Origin: an uncultured Clostridia bacterium
GTDB lineage: Bacteria > Bacillota > Clostridia > Oscillospirales > Oscillospiraceae
Length of the DNA stretch: 64,000 bases
Assembly: GCA_945482615.1 (NCBI GenBank)
Contig: CALYRG010000003.1
Span: forward strand, 1 to 64,000
Direction: 5' to 3'
Shown here one piece after another: positions 23,251-32,507 of this stretch. The position numbers were made by a program, and so were the translations under genes. The notes beneath the pieces are model-generated. The model made no database searches and was not told where the DNA came from. It saw only the letters and a program-made list of their open reading frames with translations. Every line of letters begins with the position of its first letter. Position 1 is the first letter of the stretch.

Positions 23251-25566
23251 CTATGTCAGTGGGGGATTTTTGCCGTAAGTTTCCCGGAGCTTTTTCAGAA
23301 TGTCGGTGTCTGCGGGGCAGAAGTCGTAGGCACCAATCTGGCTGGGGTGAATCCAGGTAAGGGCATTGTGCTCCAGAAGCTGGGGGACTCCATCCGCAAT
23401 GACGCAGTGATAGAGTGTCAGACGGATGAGAATATCCGGATAGTCGTGAATGACATGGGTGAACGCACTGCCCACCCGGACGGTAATACCCAGTTCCTCC
23501 CGGCACTCCCGCACCAGCGCAGACTCCATGGTCTCTCCGGGCTCCACCTTGCCGCCGACAAATTCCCACAGAAGGCCCCTTGCCTTGCCCGCAGGGCGCT
23601 GGCAGATCAGGAACCGATCCTTTTCCCAAATCAGCGCCGCCACAACGTCCACCATCCGCTTCCGGCTGAGTACCATGGTGGAAATAGGCTCCACCGTGAC
23701 CTGCTGCTGGGCCTGCCCCAGATCACCAGTGCCAGCCTGGCTTCCCCGGACGTGAATCCGCCAAGGCTTGCCCTGAGGCAGAGAAATGGCAACCGGGTGC
23801 TGGGCGGCGTTGAAGATCACATACAGCTCATCCGGCCCCTCGGTAATGCGGTAGACGGCGGTTTGGGGATCGTCGCAGGGGATGCACGATACGAGCTTTG
23901 CCACATCCGCCCGGGTACGCAGCCGCAGGGAGGGATGGGCTTTTCGGAAGGCGATAAGCCCCTTATAGTATCGAACCGTCTGTTCATAGGCAGGATCATC
24001 CAGAGTATCCCATTTCAGGCTGTTGACTTTGTCCGGGGAGCGGTAGCTGTTTTCGTCAAAGCTGCCGCCCCGTCCGGGCTTGGTGCGCAGCATTTCCTCG
24101 CCCGCCTGGAAGAGGGGAACACCCTGAGAAAGCATGCAGAAGGCTGCCGCCAGCTTGTTCATCCGGATTCGGGTATCCAGGGTTGCATCGGGAGCCGCGG
24201 TTGTGATCCGGTCAAACAGGGTGGTGTTGTCGTGGCAGGAGACATAGTTGACGCACTGCTCCGGCTGGGCGGCCCAGGAGGGAGTACCTGTAAAGCAGGC
24301 ATCCAAGAGACCCCGGTCTGTCTCGCCGCCGCATACAAACCCGGGAGCGGTCTGGTCAAACAGTCGTCCGCGCAGGGCGTCCCGAATGGTGTCGCTGAAA
24401 AAGGCAAAGCCGGGAAGCAGGGAGGAATTCTCCTGGACGGCAAGGGTGACGTTGGGCTTGGTAGGGCAGGTATTCATATGCCAGCCCTCGCCGTAGAAGA
24501 GAACGTTGGGATGGTTCCGGTGAACGGCATCCATGACGGAACGGATTGTCTGTACATCCAGAAGGCTGGCAATATCAAACCGGAAGCCGTCAATGTGGTA
24601 CTCCTCCGCCCAGTAGAGCACGGAGTCCACAATGAACTTGCGAACCATGCTCCGCTCGGAGGCGGTGTCGTTGCCGCAGAAGGAGCCGTTGGAATAGACA
24701 CAGTCAGAGCTGATCCGGCTGAAATAGCCGGGAACAAGCCGGTTGAAGCAGAATCCACCGCCATCGTACACGTGGTTGTACACCACATCCATGATGACGC
24801 TGATCCCGGCATCGTGGAGGGATTTCACCATCTGCTTGAACTCCCGCACACGCACGGCGCCGTCATGGGCGTCGGTGGCATAGGAGCCTTCGGGGGCATT
24901 GAAGTTGACCGGGTCATAGCCCCAGTTGTATTGGGGAGAGGGACGGCTTTCGTCTGAGGAGCCGAAATCAAATACCGGCAGCAGATGCACATGGGTGATG
25001 CCAAGGCTGCGCAGATGGTCAAGCCCCACCGGCTGGCCGCCTTTGGTAATGCGGCCGGATTCGGTAAAGGCCAGGTACTTGCCCCGGTGCTGGAAGCGAA
25101 GCCCCCTCTGCATGGAAAAATCCCGGACGTGGAGCTCATAGATGACGGCATCGGTGATGGGGCTTCCGTAATGGGGATCGATGTCCTCGTCCCAGCCCTC
25201 CGGATTGGTGGCGGGCAGATCGATGATCATGGCGCGGCAGCCGTTGACGCCTACAGCCCGGGCATAGGGATCACAGGCTTCCCGCTCCGTTCCGTCTGCC
25301 GTAACCACGAAGGTGTAGTAGACGCCCCGCAGATCCTTCCGGCAATGGGCAACCCAGGTGCCCTGCACATCCTGCTGCATGGGCATCAGGCCAATCAGAT
25401 CATCCCGTTCCGGGTCGCCGGAGGCGTAGAGTCTGACACAGGCGTTCTGTGCGGTGGGGGCCCAGAGCCGGAAGAAGGTTTCCCCACCGGAACACACGGC
25501 TCCCAAATCGGAGCCGGTGTAGGTATAGGCTTGTTCAAATTCGGAGCTGGCGTATTGTTCGTACAT
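23251..25566 (-). CDS. pulA: Type I pullulanase fused to C-terminal Nudix (MutT-like) hydrolase domain
   Basis: YNWGYDPVNFNAPEGSYA, DGFRFDIASLLD, FYGEGWHMN, SCHDNTTLFDR (GH13/PulA); C-terminal GGKVEPGETMESALVRECREELG Nudix box in one uninterrupted frame. Confidence 0.93.
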   Translation of the reverse strand: MYEQYASSEFEQAYTYTGSDLGAVCSGGETFFRLWAPTAQNACVRLYASGDPERDDLIGLMPMQQDVQGTWVAHCRKDLRGVYYTFVVTADGTEREACDPYARAVGVNGCRAMIIDLPATNPEGWDEDIDPHYGSPITDAVIYELHVRDFSMQRGLRFQHRGKYLAFTESGRITKGGQPVGLDHLRSLGITHVHLLPVFDFGSSDESRPSPQYNWGYDPVNFNAPEGSYATDAHDGAVRVREFKQMVKSLHDAGISVIMDVVYNHVYDGGGFCFNRLVPGYFSRISSDCVYSNGSFCGNDTASERSMVRKFIVDSVLYWAEEYHIDGFRFDIASLLDVQTIRSVMDAVHRNHPNVLFYGEGWHMNTCPTKPNVTLAVQENSSLLPGFAFFSDTIRDALRGRLFDQTAPGFVCGGETDRGLLDACFTGTPSWAAQPEQCVNYVSCHDNTTLFDRITTAAPDATLDTRIRMNKLAAAFCMLSQGVPLFQAGEEMLRTKPGRGGSFDENSYRSPDKVNSLKWDTLDDPAYEQTVRYYKGLIAFRKAHPSLRLRTRADVAKLVSCIPCDDPQTAVYRITEGPDELYVIFNAAQHPVAISLPQGKPWRIHVRGSQAGTGDLGQAQQQVTVEPISTMVLSRKRMVDVVAALIWEKDRFLICQRPAGKARGLLWEFVGGKVEPGETMESALVRECREELGITVRVGSAFTHVIHDYPDILIRLTLYHCVIADGVPQLLEHNALTWIHPSQIGAYDFCPADTDILKKLRETYGKNPPLT

Positions 25567-27235: not shown

Positions 27236-27398
27236 GTTTTTACCTCACTTGTCTGTCATTTTTTTTCTGCATAGAGTATAGCACACGGCACCAGGGAAAT
27301 CAATTCGCAATTCGGGCCGGAGAAAGAAAATCTCCTTGCACAATCCAGGCATCTGTGATAATATATCCAAAAAACACACGAAAGAAGCGTGAATCAGT

Positions 27399-28421
27399 AT
27401 GAATGAAGTGATTTCGGAAGCTACGGAGCCAAAGAAGCGAATGCTCTCCGGCATTCAGCCCAGCGGTGATCTGCATCTTGGCAACTATTTGGGGGCCATC
27501 CGGAACTGGGGGGCGAGGTCTGACCAGTTTGAGTGCTTCTATTTCATGGCGGATATGCACACCATCACCGTCCGTCAAAACCCGGCAGACCTGCGCCGCC
27601 GCACCCTGGAGCAGCTGGCCCAGTACATCGCCTGCGGACTGGACCCGGAGAAGAACACCCTGTTCATCCAGAGCCATGTCCACCAGCATGCGGAGCTTGG
27701 GTGGGTTCTCAACTGCTACACCATGTTTGGCGAGCTGTCCCGGATGACCCAGTTCAAGGACAAGGCGGCAAAGCACGCAGAGAATGTCAACGGCGGCCTG
27801 TTCACCTACCCCAGTCTGATGGCGGCGGATATTCTGCTGTACCAGCCGGATTATGTTCCGGTGGGAGAGGATCAGAAGCAGCACTGTGAGCTGACCCGGG
27901 ACATTGCCAGACGCTTTAACGGTATCTATGGCGATGTGTTCAAGATCCCCGAGCCCTATATCCCCGAGACTGGCGCCCGGGTCATGAGTCTCAATGCGCC
28001 GGATACGAAGATGAGTAAGTCCATTCCCGAGGGCTGCGTATTCCTGATGGAAAGGCCCGAGGATATCCAGCGCAAATTCAAGCGGGCCATCACCGATTCC
28101 GATACGGAAAACTGCGTCCGCTATGACCGGGAGAAGAAGCCCGGTGTTGCCAACCTGATGTCCATCTACTCCGCCTGCACCGGTATGACCTATCAGGAGA
28201 TTGAGGCCCAGTTCCGGGGCCAGGGCTACGGCAAGTTCAAGCCCGCCGTGGCTGACGCTGTGGTGGAGACTCTGCGGCCCATACGGGAGGAGGCTACCCG
28301 CCTGCTGAAGGATAAGGCGTACCTGGAAGGCGTTTACCGGAACGGAGCAGAGCGCGCAGGCTATGTCGCGGAAAAGACCCTGCGCAAGGTCTACAAGAAG
28401 ATTGGCTTTGTCCAGCGCTGA
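27399..28421 (+). CDS. trpS: Tryptophan-tRNA ligase
   Basis: RMLSGIQPSGDLHLGNYLGAIRNW, DTKMSKSIPEG. Confidence 0.97.
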   Translation: MNEVISEATEPKKRMLSGIQPSGDLHLGNYLGAIRNWGARSDQFECFYFMADMHTITVRQNPADLRRRTLEQLAQYIACGLDPEKNTLFIQSHVHQHAELGWVLNCYTMFGELSRMTQFKDKAAKHAENVNGGLFTYPSLMAADILLYQPDYVPVGEDQKQHCELTRDIARRFNGIYGDVFKIPEPYIPETGARVMSLNAPDTKMSKSIPEGCVFLMERPEDIQRKFKRAITDSDTENCVRYDREKKPGVANLMSIYSACTGMTYQEIEAQFRGQGYGKFKPAVADAVVETLRPIREEATRLLKDKAYLEGVYRNGAERAGYVAEKTLRKVYKKIGFVQR

Positions 28422-28422
28422 T

Positions 28423-28692
28423 ATGGAACAGAAGGGATCTGTGTCCCGGGACGAACTGTTTGGCCTGGAGGAGCGCTGCGCCAAGGCCATCCGCACCGTC
28501 GCCAGGGCAATCTTCATTCGCATTGCAGTGTCCGGGCTGCTGATCTGGGTGGTGCTGGCGGTAAACCATACACCGGTGGTGATCGGCCTTGCAGCGTTTG
28601 TGCTGCTGATGAATCTGATGGGGTTGTTCCCTCTGGTACGGGAACTGCGGAAGCGTCTGCGGGAACAGAAGGAGCTTCGCGCAATGGAATAA
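28423..28692 (+). CDS. Small two-TM membrane protein, unknown
   Basis: 89 aa downstream of trpS; ATG 28423. Confidence 0.65.
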   Translation: MEQKGSVSRDELFGLEERCAKAIRTVARAIFIRIAVSGLLIWVVLAVNHTPVVIGLAAFVLLMNLMGLFPLVRELRKRLREQKELRAME

Positions 28693-28693
28693 G

Positions 28694-28729
28694 AAAAGCC
28701 TGCCATTTCGCTTTGAAGTGGCAGGCTTT
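28694..28729. terminator. Bidirectional terminator
   Basis: AAAAGCCTGCCA...TGGCAGGCTTTT. Confidence 0.85.
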
Positions 28730-28731
28730 TA

Positions 28732-29337
28732 TCAGCTGTAGTCCGGCAGACCGTAGCCCCGGATGTGAATATCGTTGATGAAGAGGACACGGCTGCACAC
28801 CGCGTCACTCCAGTTGCCCTCGATGACCTTGATGAAGGGCCATTTGACCCCGACCACGATGCCTACGTGATCGGACCAGCCGGTGCAGTCCCGGAGCCTG
28901 TTCTCGTCAAAGTCGTAGTAGATAATGTCACCTGGCTGGGGGATATAGCCGTCATCCTCCTGCCAGGAGCCAAGCCCCTGCCACAGCCCGATCTGGCGCT
29001 GGCAGCCGCATTCCGGAGGAATCCGCTGGGATAGCCCGGCATCCATGGCGGCCACGGTGACAAAGGCGGCACACCAGCTGTCGCTATCCTGCAGGGCATA
29101 GCCCTGGGGCAGAACAGGCTGAGCGTTGTATCGCTCCAGAATGACCCGGTAGCTTCCGTCTGCTTCATTGGTACCCAGATAGGCTTCCGCAGCGGCCACC
29201 AGGCTGAGCCGCTTTCCCGCTTCCGGCTGACCGACCTTGCGGTAAAAGCCCCAGGGTTCAAAAATGTAATGGGCAGCTACGGCAAGAAAAAAGACCGTGC
29301 TGCAGCAAATTTGAATCCATGTTTTCTTTCTGTTCAT
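28732..29337 (-). CDS. CHAP-domain-like secreted/anchored protein
   Basis: N-terminal TM; SWCAAFVTVAAMDAG ... QPGDIIYYDFD ... DHVGIVVGVK. Confidence 0.75.
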   Translation of the reverse strand: MNRKKTWIQICCSTVFFLAVAAHYIFEPWGFYRKVGQPEAGKRLSLVAAAEAYLGTNEADGSYRVILERYNAQPVLPQGYALQDSDSWCAAFVTVAAMDAGLSQRIPPECGCQRQIGLWQGLGSWQEDDGYIPQPGDIIYYDFDENRLRDCTGWSDHVGIVVGVKWPFIKVIEGNWSDAVCSRVLFINDIHIRGYGLPDYS

Positions 29338-29396
29338 TGGTTTTCCCTCCGCATTGGGTATATTTTACCACAAACCGGTACAATTTGCAATGAAAT

Positions 29397-29783
29397 TTAC
29401 AGAAATAGGTACAGTGCCAGGGTGAGCAGGGCGTTGTTTTTGCCCTCCTGGGTATTGCCTGCCATCAGCAGAAGCAGCAGTACCACAATCAGATCCTCGG
29501 TGCAGAAGTCCTTGGGAAGCAGCTGGCGCAGAAAGCTGCCAGCATCCTGTTCCCGCCGGGGCGTCATGGGCTTTTGAGACGGCTTCGGCTGGGGTGGTGC
29601 AGGCGCGGCACAGCTGTTCTGCGCTGGAGAAACCGCACAGTCTTCCTTTGGTGGCGGCTGAGGCCGTCCCGGCTGCCGGGGATTATTCTTTCCAGGCGAT
29701 TGAGCGGGGGCTGGTTCCGGTACGGAGCGGCGGCGGTAGCTGCCGTCGGGCTGGGGAATATAGCGGTTATACACGTTCCTCAC
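29397..29783 (-). CDS. Small Pro-rich protein with C-terminal hydrophobic segment, unknown
   Basis: MRNVYNRYIPQPDGSYRRRSV...DLIVVLLLLLMAGNTQEGKNNALLTLALYLFL; 4-nt overlap with upstream gene. Confidence 0.6.
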   Translation of the reverse strand: MRNVYNRYIPQPDGSYRRRSVPEPAPAQSPGKNNPRQPGRPQPPPKEDCAVSPAQNSCAAPAPPQPKPSQKPMTPRREQDAGSFLRQLLPKDFCTEDLIVVLLLLLMAGNTQEGKNNALLTLALYLFL

Positions 29784-30136
29784 CTCCCGAGCAAACCTTG
29801 CAGCGCCCCGGAGCCGATCAGAGAGGATGCCAGCTCCGTGAGCTTCGCTGCCCGCATGGCCTTTTCCAGCTTTTCCACCCGGTGGTGGCTTACGTAATGG
29901 GACAAGGCATGAAGCAGCTCCTGCTGGTTGGGGTCAACTTTGCTCTGCTGGGCAAGACCGGACAGCTTCTGGATCAGCCTCATGTCGATAGGCGCTGAGG
30001 CCGGAACCGGGGCGGGGGCGGACGGCTGGGATGCCTGCTCCGAAGGCTGATTCATGGACTGGGCAAGAGCCATGATCTGCTGCATCATCTGCGGGTTTCC
30101 CAGAACGGCATTCAGTTTGTCTTCCAGCTCGCTCAT
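29780..30136 (-). CDS. Small protein of unknown function
   Basis: MSELEDKLNAVLGNPQMMQQIMALAQSM...; 4-nt overlaps on both sides. Confidence 0.6.
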   Translation of the reverse strand: MSELEDKLNAVLGNPQMMQQIMALAQSMNQPSEQASQPSAPAPVPASAPIDMRLIQKLSGLAQQSKVDPNQQELLHALSHYVSHHRVEKLEKAMRAAKLTELASSLIGSGALQGLLGR

Positions 30137-30354
30137 AGCTGCTCACCCAGCTTCCGAATGAGGGCCTGGGCCTCGGGTGTGGACAGACTTTTGCTCAGAA
30201 GCTTCTGGGCAGCTGTGTAATTGCCCTGAGACGCCTGCTCCATAGCGGCAGAAAGCTGGCCGCTGTCGCTGCGGCTTAAAATAGCAAGCAGCTGCTGACC
30301 GGCGTCGGTCTGCGCAAGCTGGACAAGGCGGTTAAGGTCTTGTTTTTGATCCAT
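30133..30354 (-). CDS. Small protein of unknown function (73 aa)
   Basis: MDQKQDLNRLVQLAQTDAGQQLLAILSRSDSGQ...; RBS ggaggtgt. Confidence 0.6.
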   Translation of the reverse strand: MDQKQDLNRLVQLAQTDAGQQLLAILSRSDSGQLSAAMEQASQGNYTAAQKLLSKSLSTPEAQALIRKLGEQL

Positions 30355-30417: not shown

Positions 30418-30446
30418 AAAAAACCCCATCCACAGGGGATGGGGCG
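30418..30446 (-). terminator. Terminator of mini-protein transcription unit
   Basis: Minus strand CCCCATCC-CCTG-TGGATGGGG-TTTTTT. Confidence 0.75.
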
Positions 30447-30452
30447 GATTCA

Positions 30453-30542
30453 TTACTGCTGGTAGGGATTGAAGATGCCCATGGAATAGCAATAAGCCTT
30501 GCAGCCTTCCATTATCAGTTCCTTGAGTTCATTCTTTTTCAT
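30453..30542 (-). CDS. Mini-protein, 29 aa: MKKNELKELIMEGCKAYCYSMGIFNPYQQ
   Basis: Strong SD AAGGAG upstream of ATG; below ORF-track cutoff. Confidence 0.45.
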   Translation of the reverse strand: MKKNELKELIMEGCKAYCYSMGIFNPYQQ

Positions 30543-30587
30543 AATCAAAATCTCCTTTACATATCAGTATGTGGGGCTGGGCCTGGG

Positions 30588-30674
30588 TTACAGGTACAGC
30601 CGGTCAATGGTCATGCCGTAGGCGGCAATGGCCTGGACGAAATCCTCTTTGATAGAGCGCAGTTTCTTGTTCAT
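30588..30674 (-). CDS. Mini-protein, 28 aa: MNKKLRSIKEDFVQAIAAYGMTIDRLYL
   Basis: Strong SD GGAGGTG upstream of ATG. Confidence 0.45.
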   Translation of the reverse strand: MNKKLRSIKEDFVQAIAAYGMTIDRLYL

Positions 30675-30760
30675 GCAAATACACCTCCTGCCTGATAGGC
30701 GGCATCTCCCGGCTTGCGGAAAGTGGAGAGCCCCTTGTTGAAAAAAACAGTCTGCGGCAT
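30671..30760 (-). CDS. Mini-protein, 29 aa: MPQTVFFNKGLSTFRKPGDAAYQAGGVFA
   Basis: Start immediately follows preceding stop (TGATATG); stop overlaps next start (ATGA); weak SD. Confidence 0.35.
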   Translation of the reverse strand: MPQTVFFNKGLSTFRKPGDAAYQAGGVFA

Positions 30761-30761
30761 A

Positions 30762-30842
30762 TCACTCACCGTCCCGGTTGTCGTGATCCTGGGTAAGCTC
30801 CAGGTAGCGCATCAGGCACATTTCAAAATCGCTGTGTCTCAT
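30762..30842 (-). CDS. Mini-protein, 26 aa: MRHSDFEMCLMRYLELTQDHDNRDGE
   Basis: Strong SD AAGGAGG upstream of ATG. Confidence 0.45.
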   Translation of the reverse strand: MRHSDFEMCLMRYLELTQDHDNRDGE

Positions 30843-30995
30843 AGTCAGGATACCTCCTTGCTCATCGGCGGGCCTTCCTTCCCGGAGGAAGTGCCGTGAA
30901 TTCCCACGGCGGCCCAATCATGAATAACATATGAACAAAACTTGCAGTTTGATGCTTCGGGAAGCTCCGCTGAAGTTTGAAGGGATTATAGCACC

Positions 30996-31023
30996 TTGAC
31001 ATAGCCTGGAAAAGTGGTATAAT
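30996..31023 (+). promoter_or_regulatory. Promoter of AraC-type regulator gene
   Basis: TTGACA-N16-TATAAT. Confidence 0.8.
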
Positions 31024-31062
31024 TGACTTTCATATGGAAGATATTGACATTGTGAACGGGAT

Positions 31063-31968
31063 ATGAACAATAATTCCCGGGATTTAAGCTGTTTTATGAA
31101 TAATTTGCAACATCGTGTTTTGACAAATATGGACAGTTCAGGCTTCGGCGTCCGCCTGGACAATCGGCTGAGCAGCTATATACCGCCTCACTGGCATCGG
31201 GAGGCAGAGCTTCTCCTTTTCATAAAAGGCAGGGTTACATGCAATATTGAGAGCACTTCCCTTCATTTTAAACGAGGTGACCTGTTTTTCATCAACTCCC
31301 TCCAGGTACATGAGACCCGGTGCAGCCGGGAAGCTGAGTATCTGGTTGTGCATATTGCGCCGGAGCAGATGTGCCTGTTCATGCCTACATTTGACCAGCT
31401 TTCCTTTCGGCTGAGCTTCCAGCCGGAGGAGCAGGATAAGGCGGCGGCCTTTGATCAGCTGAAAAAGCACATGGAGCAGATCCTGCACCTGACCCGCCAG
31501 ACGGACCCCTATGCGGCACTGGAGAGGGAATCTCACCTGTTTGCGGTGGCAGCGCTGCTGGTTCGATTTTTTTCCCAGAGCCTTGCGGTGGAGGAAACAA
31601 AGCTTCAGCGCAGCGACATGCTCCGGCTGGAGCCGGTGATGGAGTATATCAACCTTCACTTTGCCGAGGAGCTTTCTTTGGATGAAGCTGCCAATCTGAT
31701 GGGACTGAACCGGGAGTATTTCTGTCGCCTGTTCAAGAAAAACATGGGTGTCAGCTTCCTGCAGTACGTCTATCGGGTGCGGACAACGGCTGTGTGCCGG
31801 GAGCTGGAAACCACCGAGGATCCCATCGGAGATATTGCCGAACGCAACGGCTTCCGGGATCCCAAGATGCTCAACCAGTATTTTAAGGAGATTTACGGCT
31901 GCACTCCCTCGGAAAAGCGCAAGTCCTTCCGGGAGGTAATGCTGGAGGATTCCGAAGATACTGTATGA
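31063..31968 (+). CDS. AraC family transcriptional regulator with N-terminal cupin-like domain
   Basis: Double HTH LSLDEAANLMGLNREYFCRLFKKNMGVSFLQYVYRVR...IGDIAERNGFRDPKMLNQYFKEIYGCTPSEKRKS. Confidence 0.94.
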   Translation: MNNNSRDLSCFMNNLQHRVLTNMDSSGFGVRLDNRLSSYIPPHWHREAELLLFIKGRVTCNIESTSLHFKRGDLFFINSLQVHETRCSREAEYLVVHIAPEQMCLFMPTFDQLSFRLSFQPEEQDKAAAFDQLKKHMEQILHLTRQTDPYAALERESHLFAVAALLVRFFSQSLAVEETKLQRSDMLRLEPVMEYINLHFAEELSLDEAANLMGLNREYFCRLFKKNMGVSFLQYVYRVRTTAVCRELETTEDPIGDIAERNGFRDPKMLNQYFKEIYGCTPSEKRKSFREVMLEDSEDTV

Positions 31969-32003: not shown

Positions 32004-32507
32004 ATGAAAATACTTGTACTGTCCGACTCCCATTCTGCCCTGAGCTTCATGCGCCGCTGCATCGGGACGGTGCGCCCGGATGCGGTGGTGCATCTGGGTG
32101 ACTACTATGAGGATGCGCAGACCATGAAAGAGGAATTCCCCGGCATCCCATTTTATATGGTGCCGGGTAACTGTGACCGGTATCGCTGCGTGTTCGGCAC
32201 GCCGGAGATCCTTACAGACCGTGTGTGTGGTGTGCAGCTGTACATGACCCATGGTCACCACCATAAGGTCAAGCAGACCCGTACCTTTCTTCTCCGGGAT
32301 GCCCGTGCTGCCCATGTGGAGGTCGTGCTCTATGGACACACCCATCAGGCCGAATGCACCCGGGAAGAGGATGGGCTGTGGGTGCTGAACCCGGGCTCCT
32401 GCGGCTATTACGGCGGAAGTGCCGGCCTGATCGAGGCTGAGAACGGCTCCATCCGGAACTGCCGGATTCTCCGGGACGGGGAGCTGGAGCAGCTCAGCAC
32501 ACGGTAG
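32004..32507 (+). CDS. YfcE/MJ0936-family metallophosphoesterase
   Basis: MKILVLSDSHSALSFM...HLGDYYED...VPGNCDRYR...YGHTHQAECTR...NPGS. Confidence 0.94.
   Translation: MKILVLSDSHSALSFMRRCIGTVRPDAVVHLGDYYEDAQTMKEEFPGIPFYMVPGNCDRYRCVFGTPEILTDRVCGVQLYMTHGHHHKVKQTRTFLLRDARAAHVEVVLYGHTHQAECTREEDGLWVLNPGSCGYYGGSAGLIEAENGSIRNCRILRDGELEQLSTR

Follow-up and report, generated by a model that had tools for sequence, protein, structure and literature searches.

An AraC-family regulator and its divergent mini-protein array: a probable dedicated switch in an uncultured Clostridia bacterium and related species

What is made from positions 30,418 to 30,995 of contig CALYRG010000003.1, from an uncultured Clostridia bacterium (Oscillospiraceae), and what controls it? 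An earlier note on the 64,000-nucleotide (nt) stretch analysed here (the window) had read this interval as a self-contained minus-strand transcript encoding only mini-proteins of 26–29 amino acids (aa). That core claim was strongly supported by comparison across 136 genomes (species) of the same genus, the source genome included; frames and Shine-Dalgarno (SD) sequences lacking conservation in relatives, which the earlier note had named as what would overturn it, were looked for and the unit survived. The earlier note was silent on a divergent AraC-family regulator, a conserved operator and peptide families shared across species. With these added, the unit is likely to be an array of small proteins under a ligand-sensing AraC activator dedicated to it, the mini-proteins being the activator's whole output.

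The minus-strand unit runs from 30990 to 30423: four small frames are preceded by a promoter of the extended −10 kind and closed by a hairpin terminator with a T-run. Types A and B in the list below are families that recur in related species.

30985–31012, minus strand: array promoter with extended −10 TGCTATAAT, TATAAT at 30990–30985 and a poor −35 (TTTCCA)
30916–30946, minus strand: leader element TGCAAGTTT..TTCA..ATTCA, partly conserved in an alignment of 16 leaders
30852–30859, minus strand: SD of mini-protein 1 (AAGGAGGT), 9 nt spacing
30762–30842, minus strand: mini-protein 1, MRHSDFEMCLMRYLELTQDHDNRDGE, 26 aa, with its own SD and in the first position as in other arrays
30671–30760, minus strand: mini-protein 2, type B (KGLSTxRxP), 29 aa, p < 0.002 to type B
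30682–30689, minus strand: SD of mini-protein 3 (AGGAGGTG), 7 nt spacing
30588–30674, minus strand: mini-protein 3, type A, 28 aa, p < 0.002 to type A, nearest to a peptide of genome G104
30552–30558, minus strand: SD of mini-protein 4 (AAAGGAG), 9 nt spacing
30453–30542, minus strand: mini-protein 4, weak type A, 29 aa, p 0.02–0.07 to type A
30423–30445, minus strand: hairpin terminator with T-run, −22.4 kcal/mol, z −4.3

The proposed TATAAT was borne out, as part of an extended −10, and the four frames of 26–29 aa were located where they had been placed. Strong SDs on three of them, the coupling of the second (a TGATATG junction upstream and an ATGA overlap downstream) and the unit's own terminator were also found as described. 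Counted from the start site expected for this promoter, the leader is about 135 nt long, and not about 110 nt as the earlier note had it.

The DNA upstream of a 118-aa gene, read in 116 loci, was the starting point of the comparison. Most of these loci held nothing resembling an array; those with an AraC gene adjoining had strings of SD-led mini-open reading frames (mini-ORFs), as in G120, where the example peptides MKKNIFVRGLVQSMEQYGEMLGHINTL, MKKNILVRGLVQSMEQYGEMLNCINTL and MKKNILVRNLFYSMEEVGRMRNRLGQL had strong SDs and a mutual family likeness. When the AraC protein was used as query, an ortholog (54–69% identity) turned up in 16 of the 136 genomes, one in each, and a divergent mini-ORF array lay beside it in all 16. 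Counting ATG-initiated frames of 18–35 aa with an SD of at least 6 nt at a spacing of 5–10 nt, 38 mini-ORFs were present in the 16 regions against a mean of 0.30 expected from dinucleotide-preserving shuffles (maximum 3 in 300 sets), and the same rule returned one mini-ORF in 101 AraC-less loci. The window region had three against 0.03 expected, in agreement with the earlier argument that SD-led tiny frames of this kind are not chance. Each predicted transcript carries one to six mini-ORFs encoding proteins of 21–31 aa, and hairpin terminators were found 3′ of 15 of the 16 testable arrays. Short ORFs are generally common by chance, but the excess of 38 over 0.30, the occurrence in 16 of 16 homologous regions and the codon-level constraint described below rule out chance ORFs in an intergenic region, a reading left with next to no probability. 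A DNA search across the genus with the interval itself returned short words alone, mostly an SD plus start codon (e.g., AAAGGAGATTTTGATTATGAAAAAG), and no homologs; peptide 3 alone, searched against 151 genomes of the family, matched itself only. At one locus (L167, G124:C110, 5740–5877) the first mini-ORF copy extends into a longer, different C-terminus that overlaps the next SD and start codon, and looks like a decaying copy.

Two families recur in the arrays. Type A proteins (21–31 aa) are lysine-led, with a YG(E/K)(M/L)L core (YGEML) and a stretch of hydrophobic residues; their mean charge is +1.75 and their helical moment is modest, about 0.36. Type B is defined by the motif (K/R)GL(S/P)TxRx(P/S). 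Nine of the 18 arrays contain it, where 0.003 would be expected, and it never occurs on the reverse strand; type B genes often begin shortly past a type A stop and then lack a strong SD. G102 and G104 show a possible type C (MxDFAxN). Of the window peptides, mini-protein 2 resembled type B, and mini-protein 3 type A, more closely than any of 500 shuffles did; mini-protein 1 had no significant family similarity and is perhaps type C. The suggestion that the last two peptides are paralogous held in part, the likeness to family A being strong for the third and weak for the fourth. Inspection by eye revealed no apparent long hydrophobic stretch or signal peptide in the mini-proteins. Pfam, NCBIfam and PHROGs yielded no significant match to them, PADLOC yielded none for the two scanned, and a profile search of the PDB gave nothing of note (best E 0.5). 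A type A profile recovered type A arrays within the genus and found nothing at the thresholds used in 401 genomes of the family and 391 of the class, and restriction of the families to the genus is tentative on this count; the profile misses the window's own divergent peptides, so that divergent arrays elsewhere would escape it.

Substitutions between copies follow the reading frames. In type A genes, differences at the three codon positions numbered 179, 114 and 252 over 26 equal-length gene pairs, which share members and are not independent. Seven close pairs, pooled, gave a synonymous proportion (pS) of 0.274 and a nonsynonymous proportion (pN) of 0.083, with a nonsynonymous to synonymous rate ratio (dN/dS) of 0.26 (Fisher p = 6e-7). 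Duplicated genes in G108 and G112 encode identical proteins, and their 4 and 3 differing sites, respectively, are all synonymous. The spelling of GLST in type B varies among species at wobble bases, bar one S-to-P change. As judged from these comparisons, the mini-ORFs are translated under constraint. The same switch-plus-tiny-protein unit is carried by 16 related species, and the mini-proteins are therefore almost certainly real and regulated. A bounded transcript with a stable terminator would also suit a functional RNA, regulatory or dual-function, in which the frames are incidental or leader peptides. This is very improbable given the synonymous-biased substitution and wobble-only variation, the free variation of array length, copy number and spacers between species, and the Rfam search, in which nothing scored above cut-off (the sole match, anti-hemB, scored 20 bits where 49.5 were required and was taken as chance).

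The control of the array is suggested by the following features, on both strands of the region upstream of it.

31063–31968, plus strand: AraC-family regulator (cupin sensor and HTH_18), divergent from the array (Pfam HTH_18, HTH_AraC, AraC_binding, Cupin_2)
31041–31048, minus strand: upstream operator half-site GTCAATAT, conserved at each of the 16 AraC-linked arrays as well as the two trans arrays of G043
31021–31027, minus strand: downstream operator half-site GTCAATT, spaced 21 bp from its partner and overlapping the AraC −10
30996–31023, plus strand: AraC promoter TTGACA-16-TATAAT (12/12), like the phosphoesterase promoter of AraC-less relatives

The regulator belongs to the AraC/XylS family, with a C-terminal AraC-type helix-turn-helix and an N-terminal cupin sensor, and its structural model (predicted local distance difference test score 79, from 16 sequences) resembles ToxT, Rns, RhaR and AraC. 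All 16 sequences retain the cupin motif HxHx3Ex6G and one more His without change (H43, H45, E49, H83), a conservation that does not in itself name the ligand. Between AraC and array, the 16 intergenic regions are readily aligned, the top block being GTCAATAT-N13-GTCAATTATAcCACTTTttTCC followed, after a short variable spacer, by GTCAAGgTGnTATAAT. A direct repeat, GTCAATAT-N13-GTCAATT, is kept at all arrays and forms the putative tandem half-sites. Scanning the genus for it returned 19 exact places. Of these, 18 precede mini-protein arrays, one in each AraC-carrying genome (16) and two extra in G043; the remaining one is in G051, a genome without AraC, and looks like chance. The extra G043 operators front two further arrays on other contigs with no AraC gene adjoining, one with six type A copies (L165, G043:C14, 5157–5910) and one with three (L164, G043:C105, 1902–2201), an expansion to 12 type A copies at three loci. 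Their promoters keep the operator and a GGTGCTATAAT −10 and lack the TTGAC block, which, read on the opposite strand, forms the AraC −35; this implies that the operator and extended −10 serve the array and that TTGACA-N16-TATAAT serves AraC. In araBAD, the half-sites araI1 and araI2 lie 21 bp apart near the −35. From the placing of the half-sites at the poor array −35, and their overlap with the AraC −10, we infer that AraC activates the array and limits its own synthesis.

Beyond the genus, distant AraC homologs (39%) occur in genus g47, where neither the operator nor such an array was found. About 1 kb from the g47 homolog is a conserved SD-led ORF of 42–43 aa, (M)KIHDKKQQQGLVGRFSSYTEKHLPEIGDALALYHWRTFQRY, with a close copy in a second genome (L219, L220). 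Within the genus, a dispersed repeat, GTCAATTTTCCATTGTCAATTGTCAATT, occurs in many copies per genome (28 places in G118; also G121, G122, G093 and G116); it is perhaps a small mobile or palindromic element and looks unrelated to the operator.

The regulator and array lie between two genes that delimit them.

32004–32507, plus strand: Metallophos_2 phosphoesterase (Pfam), 36 nt behind AraC, outer boundary
30133–30354, minus strand: 73-aa gene, the first of a conserved operon, inner boundary by locus comparison

In 89 AraC-less loci the phosphoesterase gene directly adjoins the 73-aa gene, and in AraC-carrying species AraC and the array lie between the two. This comparison identifies AraC and the array as a cassette that is present or absent as a unit. 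In some AraC-less relatives (e.g., L045) the phosphoesterase has a TTGACA/TATAAT promoter at the equivalent place, so that the AraC promoter may be the former phosphoesterase promoter; AraC and the phosphoesterase are now probably joined in an operon. When mapped on a rough tree built from the 118-aa protein, presence of AraC changed 9 times compared to 13.3 when labels were shuffled (0 of 500 as low), a clustered yet patchy distribution reached through gain, loss or both. The usual site is unoccupied in G104, where the cassette lies on a different contig, either by relocation or as a foreign contig in the assembly. Relocation in G113 and G124 was considered and dropped, since the contigs of both stop a short way off and, in G113, the array is followed by the 73-aa gene in the normal manner. 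A phage or plasmid origin of the cassette was also rejected, the operator being absent from viral contigs and AraC merely remote there. A link of the array to the downstream 73/118-aa operon is not supported either and was rejected, the operon being present in 118 of 136 species compared to 16 for the array and separated from it by a terminator.

How would such a switch work? The AraC cupin domain would sense a small molecule (or metal complex) and AraC would bind the tandem half-sites just upstream of the array promoter, which has a good extended −10 and no good −35 and would be switched on by the bound regulator. The overlap of the operator with the AraC −10 suggests that AraC probably limits its own synthesis. 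The resulting transcript would carry its one to six mini-ORFs, most with their own strong SD, and end at the hairpin. Since the arrays are the sole detectable targets of AraC, the mini-proteins would be its output. They may bind a protein or a bilayer, inside the cell or on the inner membrane face; action within the cell or at the membrane surface is our favoured placing, held with confidence a little short of balanced.

Several points weigh against this account. Activation rather than repression is read solely from promoter geometry, and the arrays are known here from genome sequence alone. All genomes are drafts, with the arrays of G112 and G124 at contig ends, and G043 is 8% contaminated, so that its extra arrays could be another species' (although just one AraC was found). 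Mini-protein 1 matches no family significantly and mini-protein 4 is weakly type A; the amphipathicity of type A is modest (median shuffle p 0.07), and its mid-peptide YG does not favour one long helix.

The main rival holds that the peptides are secreted unprocessed through a general transporter encoded elsewhere and act on other cells in the manner of leaderless bacteriocins or phenol-soluble modulins, their copies diversifying for activity. Tandem, related, short, mostly positive and modestly amphipathic peptides in an accessory, patchily distributed unit, with 12 type A copies in G043, are what it would predict. However, close copies are under purifying selection rather than diversifying, the amphipathicity is no more than modest, type B is not helix-like, and no exporter or immunity gene was found among the neighbours of the window array (the phosphoesterase, a CHAP protein, and peptidoglycan-binding and uncharacterised proteins). 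We consider secretion unlikely. More doubtful again is the idea that the mini-proteins, or their fragments, act back on AraC itself as signals or feedback factors, in the way of pheromones or of ANR proteins. It would account for the perfect co-inheritance and divergent arrangement of AraC and the arrays, and has a precedent in the ANR small proteins, which stand under an AraC-type activator that they then inhibit (PMC4038620). Feedback on AraC alone is nevertheless improbable because it would leave no output, nothing else being detectably regulated; up to 12 copies at three loci would be excessive, and the regulators described with very short peptides (Rgg/SHP) are of another family.

Two further observations concern the neighbourhood. 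The minus-strand run at 27300–30354 encodes 73-aa, 118-aa, 128-aa, CHAP-domain 201-aa and 502-aa proteins, of which the CHAP protein alone has a Pfam family; the 118-aa gene is present in 118 of 136 genomes of the genus. At 23254–25566 (minus strand) a 771-aa frame shows an unusual fusion of a pullulanase-like protein (CBM48, alpha-amylase) with a NUDIX domain at its C-terminus (NUDIX_4, 4.5e-21).

Returning to the AraC-driven array, a wider reading is offered slightly more tentatively than action within the cell or at the membrane surface: a one-component response whose AraC sensor has as its entire regulon tandem, sometimes dispersed arrays of several unrelated orphan mini-protein families acting jointly, a chemical signal being answered with tiny proteins only, and in which the cassette comes and goes as a unit between related gut species. 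Proteins below 30 aa seldom appear in annotations, and most of those known are known singly. Here, 16 species with homologous arrays, codon-level evidence of translation and a fixed regulator and operator make the function of a whole set testable, by switching on one regulator or deleting one 0.6-kb unit, and a search for regulator plus operator can uncover mini-protein arrays missed by gene finders.

No description of such a system was found in the open literature, a coverage that leaves out most subscription journals. The E. coli AraC/araBAD system shares the divergent regulator, the tandem half-sites (putative in the array) 21 bp apart by the −35, the operator overlapping the regulator promoter and the AraC fold, but its targets are enzymes and transporters and not an array of orphan mini-proteins. 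Staphylococcal phenol-soluble modulin operons also have tandem ORFs of about 20–30 aa, often unannotated, and these lack signal peptides, none of which was apparent by eye in the array either; compared by description, they differ in that the array here is under AraC-type one-component control and contains a second, non-helical family (type B). The leaderless multi-peptide bacteriocins aureocin A70 and enterocin DD14 likewise comprise multiple related short peptides that are encoded in a single operon and left unprocessed, whereas the exporter and immunity genes that characterise them are missing from the surroundings of the window array. In Rgg/SHP pairs a regulator gene also adjoins very short ORFs, but the regulator here is an AraC-cupin protein and not of the Rgg/RRNPP type, and each locus encodes several peptides of several families. 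In the ANR family (e.g., Aar with AggR), small proteins depend on an AraC-type regulator, which ANR inhibits (PMC4038620). The likeness, by description, lies in this dependence; the mini-proteins here are shorter (21–31 aa), are encoded in tandem arrays of several families in a Gram-positive lineage, and would be the whole detectable regulon of AraC rather than a brake on it.
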